A stretch of DNA of 64,000 nt. Source: Streptomyces sp. AP-93 (GTDB lineage: Bacteria > Actinomycetota > Actinomycetes > Streptomycetales > Streptomycetaceae). The notes under the pieces are model-generated. The model had not been told where the DNA came from, ran no database searches, and was given only the letters and a program-made list of their open reading frames with translations. The position numbers and the translations under genes are program-made. This document shows, piece by piece, positions 33,376-50,786 of this stretch. The stretch spans positions 207,446 to 271,445 of the forward strand of contig NZ_JALGBX010000004.1 of NCBI RefSeq assembly GCF_022808175.1. The letters run 5' to 3'. Within the stretch, counting starts at the first letter, position 1. Every line of letters begins with the position of its first letter.

Positions 33376-33528
33376 GTGTCCGCATGGCTCCCGCCCGCCG
33401 AGTACGTCAACACCATCCCCCGGGCGACCGGTTACGCCTGCCTCTACTTCACCGACACCGCCGGCCGCCCGGTGCAGCTCCGTGCGACGTACTCCACGGA
33501 GACCTGGCAGTGGCCGGGCGTTCATTAG
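33376..33528 (+). pseudogene. 5' half of a Nudix hydrolase gene, disrupted by the mobile element
   Basis: GTG 33376 after GGAGGTGG starts a typical Nudix N-terminus (SAWLPPAEYVNTIPRATGYA, then LYFTDTAGRPVQLRATYSTE, TWQWPG). The native sequence ends at 33520. The reading frame then enters the mobile element and stops at TAG 33526-33528 after two foreign residues (VH). Joined to 50446-50786 it restores the native protein: codons TGG CCG GGC G|GG AAC ATG. It lacks the Nudix box, so no activity is expected. Confidence 0.9.
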
Positions 33529-33561
33529 GCAAGTCATCTGTCGGTAGGCCGGTTGTCGGTT
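33520..33561 (+). repeat. Left terminal inverted repeat region of the element
   Basis: GTTCATTAGGC (33520-33530; the first G is shared with the target), TGTCGGT (33539-33545) and TTGTCGGTT (33553-33561). The right end read inward has GTTCTTTAGGC and TTGTCGGTT, with 10 of 11 and 9 of 9 matches. The repeated TGTCGGT is a candidate recombinase-binding site. Confidence 0.75.
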
Positions 33562-33845
33562 CACTGGGTAGCGCCGCTCACGCGTCCCGTTGTCCGCGGC
33601 GTTCCCGAACCGGTGCGCGAGACAGTCGCACGGCGGGGCGACCGGACTGGACCCGGCCTGCACAAAGACGTAGAATTGCGACAATAGGGCCTCCTGGAAC
33701 ACTCGTTGGCGTAGACACCTACCGAGCTACCAAGAGGCCCTGTTCTCACGCCCGGCACCCGCCGTGATCACCCGAACGGGACTCCCGTTCGACCAACACC
33801 GCTCAAGATCGGAACGACAACAGCCACTCAGCGACACAGGCACCT
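33562..33845. other. Non-coding left arm of the element with inverted AGGGCCTC/GAGGCCCT
   Basis: No convincing gene. AGGGCCTC (33686-33693) and GAGGCCCT (33734-33741) form an inverted pair 40 bp apart in a lower-GC stretch that looks like a decayed insertion-sequence end. An open frame after it (YQEALFSRPAPAVITRTGLP ...) could be a transposase scrap but is not identifiable. Confidence 0.35.
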
Positions 33846-33898
33846 TGGCATGCTTCAGGCCCCTCCGGGCGATGCCCGGAGGGGCCTGAAGCATGCCA
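33846..33898 (-). terminator. Perfect 25-bp inverted repeat downstream of the PH-domain gene
   Basis: TGGCATGCTTCAGGCCCCTC continues into CGGGC, loops at GAT (33871-33873), and returns with a perfect complement to 33898. It begins 1 nt after the stop of the minus-strand gene at 33900, so it should terminate that transcript. The 25-bp perfect stem is unusually long and could also be a recombination or replication structure. Confidence 0.7.
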
Positions 33899-33899
33899 T

Positions 33900-34349
33900 T
33901 CACCGCCGATTGCTCTCCCACCAGTCGGTCAGCTCCGTCACTCGGGCGTCGAACCGCCGGTCGAGGAACGACATCGGGGCCGCCAGGGTCAGGCATTCGC
34001 CGGTCACGAGGCGAACACTCACGGACCGCACTCCGGCGGTGCGGTGGACGTCGATGCCCAAGACGTTCGCCCAGGGGATGCGGCGCTCTCGTTGCCCGAA
34101 GGCTGTGAAGGCCGCCAGGTATTCGGGGGTCAGCCGGGCCCCCCTGAGGCGTGGCAGGACCAGCGCGCCCACGACCCCCGCGCCGGCCGCGTACGCGCAG
34201 TCCCGAAGTTCGGCGGCCGTCATGGGGTCCGCGGTCCACCGCAGGCCCAGCTGAAGCAGGCCCGTCGCCAGGGCGAGGCCCAGGACGACCGGGACGGTGA
34301 CCTGTGCGGCGGTCAGCCGCAGTTCGACGTTTCCTTCCGTGTGCCGCAC
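33900..34349 (-). CDS. Two-TM PH-domain membrane protein, candidate immunity protein for the RHS toxin
   Basis: 149 aa. Two transmembrane helices (TVPVVLGLALATGLLQLGL and CAYAAGAGVVGALVLP, about residues 15-65) are followed by a bacterial PH-like domain (ARLTPEYLAAFTAFGQRERR, IPWANVLGIDVH, SVSVRLVTGECLTLAAP). It lies directly downstream of the RHS toxin gene, 77 nt from its stop, in the position where polymorphic toxin systems keep immunity genes. Membrane location would suit protection against a membrane-acting toxin tip. The immunity role is inference; a housekeeping PH protein is the alternative. GTG 34349 is the likely start. Confidence 0.65.
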   Translation of the reverse strand: MRHTEGNVELRLTAAQVTVPVVLGLALATGLLQLGLRWTADPMTAAELRDCAYAAGAGVVGALVLPRLRGARLTPEYLAAFTAFGQRERRIPWANVLGIDVHRTAGVRSVSVRLVTGECLTLAAPMSFLDRRFDARVTELTDWWESNRR

Positions 34350-48754: not shown

Positions 48755-50382
48755 GATGACGCCTCGAGGCGAGCGGTGGAGACGCTTGCCGGTCCGAGCG
48801 TCGAGCCGCCCGCGGACGCGAACGCCCGCACGAGGGCGTCCACACCGGCTTGCTCCTCGTCGTCCAGCAACTCCATCAGATAGGAGACCTGCAGGCCGGT
48901 GAACGGCTCGAGGTAATGGTCGCGGGTGGTGTCCGGATGGCTGTGGCCCATCAACATCGCCAACTGCATCCAGAAGTCGCCGATCCGATCTCGCAGGTCA
49001 GCCGCCTCTTCATCGGAAAACCCCGTGAGCCTGCGCTCCTCGACGAGGCTGAGGATGGAGAACCACCTCAATGCGAACGAATGCCGCAGCATGTGTGGGG
49101 TCGCCCACAGAGGGCACTGGCTCCTCGCCCGCTCGCGGTTCTCCTCGGTCATCTGGCGATCAGGATCGGCTGACCGGACCCAGGCCTCCTTGACGCGCTC
49201 GTTGGCGGCGTCGAAGGTGTCCTCCCAGGAATACGGTTTCTTCGGCTGTCCGGTGATGGACAGCCAGACCCACAGCGGCTCCAACCCGTGCGGCGTACGC
49301 CGGAACAGTAGCTGCCGCTCATCCGGACAGAGCACATCGAGAGACATCGGAACCAGGCCGGCCGGTCCTTCGACGTGGATCGTCCGGCCGAGACCACCAC
49401 GCCCGGAAACGATCCGGATGCCACGCAACTTCTCGTATGTACCGCGTCGTTGAGCACGGCGGATCACCTCGGTCCGCGACCCTTCCATCGTGTCCATGTA
49501 ACCCAGGACCGACTGCAAGCTGCGGCGTGGAATCCAGTAATTGCGCCCCTCACCTCCGCCCTTGATGCACTCCGCGGCGAGCCAGGCTCGATGCAGTCCC
49601 GCCCTGCCCACCGTCGGCAGTTCGATGTCGAGGATGCTGGCCCATTCCCTGATTCGCAGCCCGGTGCCGTACAGCCCGTCGACGAAGGCCACGTCGCGGT
49701 CCTCGTTGAACCCCCGCCAGCCGGTCTTCCGGTATCCATCGAACCCGTAGCCGCGCAGACCGATGTCACGCCACTGCTCCAGCGCGGGCCGAAGCAGCCA
49801 CTTCACCTGGCGGCGCTTCGAACCAGCGGGCCGCAGGGGATCGCGTCGCCGATTCGAGTACCGGTGGTCCTCGGCGCCGCCCGAGCTGTGGAGCGAGGCG
49901 TCGGCTGAATCGGTGCCGGCAGCGGGCACAGTCTTCACCGGGTTCGCGATGCCGTACCAGCCCGACGCCCACGTGTAGAAGGTGTTGAGTCCGGCGCGGT
50001 CCGTGTCGAACGAAGTCGCCTGAATTCGCTCATAGTTCCGCATGTCGGTCAGGCGCCAGCCCTTGAACGCCTCTACATCGCGAGCGGTTGCTTCGTTCCA
50101 GGAACGGCCTATCGCCGTCAGGAAATCCAGCCAGACAACTAGCGTGTAGGCGTACCGCCGCATCGTCAGTGGTGCTGCCGTAGCCATCTTCCCCGTACGG
50201 AAGAACAGATTAATCCGACTGTCCGGCCTTCCTGACGGCGGCAGGAGAACGGGAGTGCCATGGCGAGCCCTGTTGTTGGCCGCCCGCTCGTTCAGGTCTC
50301 CGAAACGGAGGATGTCGGGATCATCAAGTAGTCGAGGTGGAACCGTGAGGTCGTAGAAGTCCACCCGCCAGTGATCGAACAC
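48751..50382 (-). CDS. Tyrosine recombinase, first of the trio, complete catalytic set
   Basis: 543 aa. All catalytic positions are visible: Arg in GLYGTGLRIREWASILDI, Lys in AECIKGGGEGRNYWIP, His-x-x-Arg in TPHMLRHSFALRWF, then His and Tyr in LMGHSHPDTTRDHYLEPF. The N-terminal arm (TMRRYAYTLVVWLDFLTAIG) is the core-binding domain. It is the most likely catalytic subunit for excision and integration. GTG 50382 is only about 60 bp from the element's right end, so its promoter overlaps the terminal repeat. It heads the four-gene coupled operon. Confidence 0.9.
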   Translation of the reverse strand: MFDHWRVDFYDLTVPPRLLDDPDILRFGDLNERAANNRARHGTPVLLPPSGRPDSRINLFFRTGKMATAAPLTMRRYAYTLVVWLDFLTAIGRSWNEATARDVEAFKGWRLTDMRNYERIQATSFDTDRAGLNTFYTWASGWYGIANPVKTVPAAGTDSADASLHSSGGAEDHRYSNRRRDPLRPAGSKRRQVKWLLRPALEQWRDIGLRGYGFDGYRKTGWRGFNEDRDVAFVDGLYGTGLRIREWASILDIELPTVGRAGLHRAWLAAECIKGGGEGRNYWIPRRSLQSVLGYMDTMEGSRTEVIRRAQRRGTYEKLRGIRIVSGRGGLGRTIHVEGPAGLVPMSLDVLCPDERQLLFRRTPHGLEPLWVWLSITGQPKKPYSWEDTFDAANERVKEAWVRSADPDRQMTEENRERARSQCPLWATPHMLRHSFALRWFSILSLVEERRLTGFSDEEAADLRDRIGDFWMQLAMLMGHSHPDTTRDHYLEPFTGLQVSYLMELLDDEEQAGVDALVRAFASAGGSTLGPASVSTARLEASS

Positions 50383-50411
50383 GTCCGAAGGGGCTCCCCC
50401 AGAGCAGTCTT

Positions 50412-50440
50412 AACCGACAACTCTGGACAGCCTAAAGAAC
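50412..50440 (-). repeat. Right terminal inverted repeat region of the element
   Basis: Read inward on the minus strand: GTTCTTTAGGC (50440-50430), then TTGTCGGTT (50420-50412), matching the left end. It lies between the recombinase operon start and the Nudix 3' half. Confidence 0.75.
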
Positions 50441-50445
50441 CGGCG

Positions 50446-50786
50446 GGAACATGGACCACGGCGAGTCGCCCTGGGAGTGCGCGCTCCGGGAGTGCCTGGA
50501 GGAGACGGGCATCGCCTTCGAGGGCGAGCGGAAGCTGTTGGGCACGCAGTTCATCGCGCACCGCGGCGAGGAATGGCCCGCGAACCACATCGGCTTCCTC
50601 TTCGACGGCGGCACCCTCACCGACGAGCAGATCGCCGCCATCGTCCTCGACCCCGGGGAACACAGCGAGGTACGGGTCCACTCGGTGCGGGAGTGGGAGG
50701 CGCTCATGACCCCGTCGAACTTCGCGCGCCTGCGCGAGATCGATGCGGCCCGCCGTACCGGCACGGTGGCCTACATGGAGCACTGA
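50446..50786 (+). pseudogene. 3' half of the disrupted Nudix hydrolase gene
   Basis: It encodes the complete remainder of the Nudix domain: [20 protein letters not shown] plus GI, which with the restored preceding Gly gives G-x5-E-x7-R-E-x2-E-E-x-G-I, a full Nudix box, then the rest of the fold to EH-stop at 50786. The break falls at the first Gly of the box. A start at ATG 50451 (GGCGGG upstream) could give a 111-aa fragment, unlikely to fold without the first strands. The native 161-aa enzyme would hydrolyse a nucleoside-diphosphate derivative. Confidence 0.9.

Follow-up and report, generated by a model that had tools for sequence, protein, structure and literature searches.

Which feature of its host does an integrative element recognise when its insertion falls on the DNA of a conserved protein motif? 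The question is raised by a 16,919-bp element of Streptomyces sp. AP-93 that splits a Nudix hydrolase gene at its Nudix box and carries at one end a four-gene operon of the tyrosine-recombinase type, whose first gene is here called ginA. The element lies in a 64,000-nt stretch of DNA (contig NZ_JALGBX010000004.1, positions 207,446 to 271,445), hereafter the window, and all coordinates are those of the window. Judged from its sequence and those of its relatives, it is very probably an integrative element that prefers the DNA for the Pro-Gly-Gly of the Nudix box, at one codon phase, in any Nudix gene of its host.

Ends of the element and the interrupted gene

A previous reading, made from the letters of the window alone (the sequence-only reading), had taken the pieces on either side of the element for the halves of one Nudix gene. 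They are: joining 33376-33520 to 50446-50786 gives 486 nt, an open frame of 161 codons that matches Pfam NUDIX (E = 1e-14), and the comparison with orthologues that it had called for yielded two intact genes with an uninterrupted site. Its halves stand as placed. The ends are now sharper: comparison of both junctions sets the element at 33521-50439, with a 6-bp core outside each border. At the ginA-distal junction the order is TGGCAGTGGC-[CGGGCG]-TTCATTAGGC, the element beginning at 33521, and at the ginA-proximal junction it is GCCTAAAGAA-[CCGGCG]-GGAACATGGA, the element ending at 50439. The 10-bp arms, TTCATTAGGC and TTCTTTAGGC (the reverse complement of the other end), are equal at 9 of 10 positions, a match not reached once in 20,000 random pairs of 10-mers drawn from the element.

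The core, C[G/C]GGCG, encodes the Pro-Gly-Gly that opens the Nudix box: it starts at the second base of the Pro codon, runs through one Gly codon and takes in the first base of the codon for the Nudix-box Gly. In the two intact orthologues nearest to the interrupted gene, each 68% identical, the site reads TGGCAGTGGC-CGGGCG-GGAACATGGAC and TGGCAGTGGC-CCGGCG-GGAACATGGAC, which is the predicted empty site, once with each core. Matches to the rejoined protein were found in 11 of the 41 genomes searched, its own split copy counted. Since the left half meets a TAG stop three codons past the last intact Gly codon, and an in-frame TAA precedes the right half, the gene is broken. A replacement Nudix gene brought as cargo, comparable to the bcp gene of the strand-biased circularizing element (SE) SE-6283, was considered and rejected: none of the 37 NUDIX matches in the host genome (broken gene counted) lies inside the element.

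Targets of related elements

Relatives were sought through GinA homology in two overlapping draws of 295 and 392 genomes from the genus, in 394 genomes of the class, in one genome-contig scan and in a plasmid collection (187 records with a match, 8 of these fetched). The target tally comprises 21 elements, that of the window included, for which the proximal junction could be read and GinA, complete or partial, is at least 52% identical. Nudix boxes are hit by eight of them (window, L004, L006, L065, G180, G209, G258 and G141) and the APH loop by four (G012, L066, L067 and L069). Two elements of a single Nonomuraea (L005, L007) interrupt pRiA4b ORF3 genes. Further kinds of gene are hit once each: radical-SAM (L055), SNase (L071), DnaE (G168, on the opposite strand), methyltransferase (L068) and, by eye only, exonuclease-like (L070). 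The targets of the remaining two (L054, L072) carry no gene-family assignment. Eleven more distant GinA homologues (at most 46% identity) have uncertain junctions and were kept outside the main tallies; among the four scanned (L027, L030, L032, L035), Pfam matched two, L030 (DprA) and L035 (DUF2637).

The sequence-only reading had suggested that the element may aim at sequence conserved across Nudix genes, much as Tn554-like elements aim at one site, and had proposed a search for related ends and the genes that they interrupt. Run by GinA homology and by distal-end sequence, this search supported the idea: each of the eight elements whose GinA is substantial and 61% or more identical (the window's among them) stands at one codon phase of the Nudix box, and no related element was seen elsewhere in a Nudix domain. 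Tn554 uses one site, whereas here many non-orthologous genes are hit at one motif and sister lineages use others. Scanned alone, four Nudix right halves begin at position 35 of Pfam NUDIX, or at 37 from their third residue, and four rejoined copies besides that of the window match the family. Three of the four APH right halves begin at Pfam position 177 or 178 (L067, among them, just below the cut-off), and the pRiA4b halves begin at 98 or 99. The Pfam scan gave no match for the target pieces L027, L032, L054, L066, L070, L141, L150, L152, L156, L157, L160 and L161, and nothing above the cut-off for L072 and L143; where such pieces carry an assignment, it was made by eye or from an alignment with a relative that had been scanned.

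Could the shared site reflect descent from a single ancient insertion into one Nudix locus, inherited vertically? Two pairs of target genes are indeed similar (G209/G258, 80%; G180/L004, 59%), but the other Nudix right halves are mostly 17-39% identical in pairwise comparison, and hence do not represent one inherited locus. In addition, the L065 copy sits on a plasmid, and a close GinA is present in just 7 of the 295 genomes of the genus, the window's own included. We consider this explanation extremely improbable, and reject a single inherited insertion on the non-orthologous targets.

Lineage-specific targeting

In a GinA tree of 31 rows, the seven closest Nudix-hitting rows form one clade and the four APH rows a separate clade, each with a support of 100/100. 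With 19 labelled rows and eight targets, the tree needs seven changes of target, which is the minimum, and none of 300 label shuffles fell below eight; the shuffle test rests on Nudix, APH and pRiA4b, the three targets that are represented by several rows. On balance we slightly favour the broader proposal that actinobacterial four-gene elements home to the DNA of conserved, mostly catalytic motifs, with each lineage specialised on one motif of one protein superfamily, and diversify by switching motif. The motifs would be the Nudix box, the HGD loop of APH and pRiA4b ORF3, with single cases in the radical-SAM CxxxCxxC, the SNase active site, DnaE and Ku.

One Nudix-APH gene contains two sites, used by different elements. 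In G141 a long gene is cut at ...LWHLP-SGHLDG, its Nudix box, and the same gene carries at residue 317 past the junction THGDFQLRNILY, an APH loop. A 92% identical gene of G019 is cut at THGDFQL, its own LWHLPSGHLNG being intact, and in G065, G119 and G237 genes of 60-68% identity are cut at the APH loop. The halves of the G141 gene with their element ends (L058/L140, L044) are ∼226 kb apart, either as the borders of a very large element or through rearrangement of the locus.

Distal ends and relics

The 392 genomes of the genus were also searched with a distal-end pattern of 38 bases, at most 3 mismatches being allowed. There were 32 matches in 30 genomes, and none with the backward control; the matches gave 30 loci, two matches being without a locus. 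Eight loci are in Nudix genes, three of them new and judged by eye (L150, L157, L160), and eight, seven of them new, are in the HGD loop of APH-type kinases. A related GDLW/GDFW motif is hit at three loci, assigned by eye (L152 with no Pfam match, L143 with none above the cut-off, L139 not scanned), and DnaE, Ku and DUF6624 genes at one each. Pfam backs five of the eight APH left halves, which end at profile position 175 or 176, as well as Ku and DUF6624; of the other APH assignments, L161 has no Pfam match but aligns with the gene of G141, and L155 stood outside the scan. A solo distal-end-like sequence (L053, in G040) was also seen in an ABC ATPase gene (Pfam ABC_tran), just after DEPTSQTDPR; an ABC transporter gene is likewise described as a site of the GInts (ginABCD islands) of Pseudomonas (PMC5385486).

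These positions bear on a possible selection bias, in which insertion is broad and survival in dispensable multi-gene families makes Nudix genes over-represented. Nudix genes are numerous (37 NUDIX matches in the host genome) and, taken singly, probably dispensable. Survival leaves unexplained, however, why all Nudix copies share one codon phase, and likewise the fixed APH positions (five scanned left halves end at 175/176, three scanned right halves begin at 177/178). We regard such a bias as a very improbable source of the pattern.

Two further elements have both ends in one gene, in each case at an APH loop: G019, with the core AGCTCA twice, and G368, with GGGTCG and GGGTGG. The GinA fragments of APH-loop relics are nearest to the APH rows (G065, 65 aa, 98%; G368, 186 aa, 61-63%), as their targets predict.

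Several observations weigh against a strict preference for the Nudix box or against parts of the proposal built on it. The gene family is unrecognised at 8 of the 30 distal-end loci, and among 16 stretches of 3-40 kb beside distal ends a full GinA was present in none and fragments in three, from which it follows that many distal-end copies are relics. One relic, in G149 (L179 1365-3900), has 2.5 kb between its ends, the cores CGGGTG and CAGACG, and a GinA fragment of 107 aa that falls in the Nudix clade (70-77% identical to Nudix rows); no Nudix gene was recognised flanking it. Counting this relic, the tally becomes eight of nine in Nudix boxes. The insertion may have gone off target, or the relic may have been rearranged; the case speaks against a strict rule. 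The GinA of G141 falls outside the supported Nudix clade, its placement not being settled by the tree, and the Nudix copies of G209/G258 and of L004/G180 may have been inherited together. Finally, an AlphaFold2 model of the second operon protein has a low mean pLDDT (45) and does not confirm a recombinase fold.

The G149 relic and the eight unassigned loci, all outside recognisable Nudix genes, would be accommodated if the element recognised a short GC-rich DNA word that is by coincidence frequent in Nudix boxes; the protein motif would then be incidental, and occurrences of the word elsewhere would serve as sites too. The core is C[C/G]GGCG at six of the eight unassigned loci, and CGGGTG and TAGCCG at one each. 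A strict Nudix-like word occurs 9-26 times per genome (six genomes), against 7-15 for the backward control; with counts so near the control, the word is not rare, nor is it clearly enriched except in two of the six genomes. On the other hand, all eight copies with a substantial GinA of the Nudix group are in Nudix genes, and the cores vary (CGTCGG, TCGCCG, CGGGTG), so that there is no single common word. We therefore view recognition of a bare word as a real but doubtful alternative to a preference for Nudix-box DNA. The C[C/G]GGCG distal cores beside flanks without a recognisable Nudix gene (L137, L141, L142, L145, L147, L151) are possibly footprints of an earlier residence in a Nudix gene.

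Recombinase operon and cargo

Four overlapping genes stand at the right end and are directed inward (Table 1). The GinA residues listed there are invariant across seven aligned homologues, and GinA has weak XerC-type profile matches. Those listed for the third protein are likewise invariant in the alignment, and weak Phage_integrase matches were obtained in four of seven members. The second protein keeps a Tyr, and no Arg-I motif was recognised in its alignment. The fourth is small and conserved in alignment, with no Pfam match and no credible NCBIfam match. A profile search against PDB sequences returned nothing for the first two proteins and weak matches for the third, including XerD (E 0.06).

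The complete four-gene set was found in the elements of the window, L004, G180, G209, G258, G141, G012 and G168, and partial sets at the remaining five loci in the operon-gene search (L005, L006, L007, L071, L072). In all six plasmids inspected for annotation, the first and third genes are labelled "integrase" and the second "hypothetical". Elsewhere in the host genome there is a GinA paralogue, 37% identical (G000:C38:27672-29024). The G209 GinA (L009/L039) has one TGA within the match and may be decaying. On the plasmids of NBC_00637 and CdTB01 (L066, 12.8-26 kb; L067, 12.9-26 kb), a small Nudix/MFS block is enclosed by a pair of recombinase operons placed back to back. As to the cargo of the window element, the RHS/YD-repeat protein (34426-40713) and the small open reading frame that follows it (33900-34421) look, from their sequences, like a polymorphic toxin and its partner.

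Table 1. Features of the element and of the gene that it interrupts (window coordinates; ORF, open reading frame; aa, amino acids).
Feature	Position	Strand	Basis
Nudix hydrolase gene, 5' part, ending ...WQWPG, distal core included	33376-33520	+	Rejoined frame, Pfam NUDIX, orthologues
ginA-distal 6-bp core CGGGCG, proposed footprint of an earlier site	33515-33520	+	Junctions; SE rule as described in PMC9345347
Distal terminal inverted repeat TTCATTAGGC	33521-33530	+	9/10 match to proximal end
TGTCG subterminal repeats, distal end	33539-33543, 33554-33558	+	Same offsets in 9/9 two-ended elements
Cargo ORF, 173 aa, no Pfam match	33900-34421	-	ORF list, Pfam
Cargo ORF, 2095 aa, RHS/YD-repeat protein	34426-40713	-	Pfam RHS_repeat
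Three small cargo ORFs, no Pfam match	41753-42256, 42279-43274, 43277-43789	+	ORF list, Pfam
Fourth operon gene, 145 aa small protein, TnpC/Srap/GinD position	44284-44721	-	Alignment, position
Third operon gene, 719 aa large tyrosine recombinase, R370, R499, R501, R502, H524, Y533	44718-46877	-	Alignment, profile matches
Second operon gene, 626 aa, recombinase-like by position, no recognisable Arg-I motif (Tfp-like)	46874-48754	-	Alignment
First operon gene (GinA/IntA), 543 aa tyrosine recombinase, R243, H430, R433, H480, Y490	48751-50382	-	Alignment, profile matches
TGTCG subterminal repeat, proximal end	50415-50419	-	End comparison
Proximal terminal inverted repeat, GCCTAAAGAA on the + strand	50430-50439	-	Junction comparison
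ginA-proximal 6-bp core CCGGCG, proposed native target core	50440-50445	+	Junctions, orthologues
Nudix hydrolase gene, 3' part (GNMDHGES...)	50446-50786	+	Rejoined frame, Pfam NUDIX, orthologues

Ends and proposed mechanism of integration

The comparison of ends covered nine elements for which both are available. When one end is inverted and set against the other, the outermost 10 bp agree at 8 or 9 positions in eight of these elements and at 6 in G168. TGTCG was present in all nine at distal offsets 18 and 33 and at proximal offset 20. In the mechanism that we propose, the element would be moved by its own four-gene tyrosine-recombinase operon, the recombination site being two 10-bp inverted repeats that flank the 6-bp core. 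A circle with GCCTAAAGAA-N6-TTCATTAGGC would recombine with the target by a 6-nt staggered exchange at the core, such that the ginA-proximal core stays native and the distal one is a footprint of the previous site. Recognition would take place at the level of DNA, because a Nudix box made of conserved residues and written in GC-rich codons is nearly constant as a DNA sequence.

A corresponding rule is described for SEs, in which the new target supplies the 6 bp beside intA and the previous site those at the far end (PMC9345347, PMC10214605). The cores of L069 fit this rule: the distal one is GGGACC, and the proximal one, AGCTCC, reads Q-L-R in HGDFQLRN. Where the two cores of a Nudix element differ (one base in the window, two in G141), all three differences are synonymous, as would be expected, in this small sample, of a distal core derived from a different Nudix box. 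The single difference in G368 is synonymous as well; those of G012 and L069 are not all synonymous.

Comparison with known systems

By description, and not by sequence, the layout of the element is like that of SEs. With these it appears to share the order IntA, non-catalytic recombinase-like protein, large IntB and small protein (PMC10214605, PMC5991714, PMC9345347); the residue patterns and sizes of the four proteins fit the order intA, tfp (no RHRY), intB, srap. Inverted-repeat ends with a 6-bp spacer, and a gene as a possible target (SE-6283 in bcp), are also common to both. As in SEs, a split attB is retained in attL and attR, and the joined ends of the window element are imperfect inverted repeats around a 6-bp spacer. 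SEs are reported mainly from Gammaproteobacteria, however, whereas this element is actinobacterial. They are described as using few selected loci (bcp orthologues for SE-6283-like elements, a plasmid copy aside), in contrast to one motif across paralogues, and SE-6283 carries a copy of bcp, while the window element is without a Nudix gene.

GInts are described with three recombinase-type genes and a small gene at one end, variable cargo, a 6-nt core and imperfect att repeats (PMC5385486), and the operon at one end, the variable cargo and the imperfect att repeats were all found here. The GInt protein without the first catalytic Arg is the third (GinC), whereas here it is the second, and the GInts of that report adjoin the ends of the ssb and ribonucleotide reductase genes or, in the case of one ABC transporter gene, occupy its 5' end (PMC5385486). 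The RIT archetype, with three catalytic recombinases of 315-410 aa (PMC10214605), differs from the present proteins of 543, 626 and 719 aa, the second lacking a recognised Arg-I. Streptococcal integrative and conjugative elements with serine integrase triplets disrupt mutT (a Nudix gene), traG or hsdM, but they use serine and not tyrosine recombinases and have 2-8 bp repeats, and motif-wide targeting goes unmentioned in that account (PMC4701971).

Tn554 and actinobacterial Tn554-related transposons share with the element a normal-size and a long tyrosine recombinase, a TnpC-type gene and site specificity (PMC3414803), and Tn554 leaves a 6-bp footprint (PMC10214605), as proposed here. Given that actinobacterial Tn554-related elements are on record (PMC3414803), could the element be a plain member of that family? 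It is site-specific and has a 6-bp core, imperfect terminal inverted repeats and a small gene in the TnpC position. Against this, it has four genes where TnpA, TnpB and TnpC are three, and its targets are many genes and not one site; Tn554 is described with a unique site and with no mention of a second recombinase-like gene (PMC3414803), and in the statement of the SE authors it is without a counterpart of the second SE gene (PMC10214605). We consider plain Tn554 membership unlikely, and reject it on the additional 626-aa gene.

Targeting of Nudix genes by tyrosine recombinase elements, or motif-wide targeting, was not found in the open-access literature searched, where the disruption of mutT by the streptococcal elements with serine integrase triplets (PMC4701971) comes closest. 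The general kind is thus known (SEs, GInts, Tn554 and Tn554-related elements), and what is new is the targeting rule, apparently undescribed in that literature. The element seems to be an actinobacterial variant of the SE/GInt/Tn554 kind, whose notable feature is a lineage-specific homing to the DNA of a conserved motif.

Significance

Site-specific elements usually rely on one conserved locus, such as a tRNA gene, radC or ssb. Here the conserved feature is a protein motif across many genes and not one locus, so that the host range could be wide and the number of sites high, while any single essential locus would be spared. If lineages are indeed specialised for different motifs, every host would offer many conserved and individually dispensable targets. 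Naturally retargeted lineages with clear ends would then make the choice of target, and its change, by elements with several recombinases directly testable, and such lineages are candidates for integrases with predictable sites.

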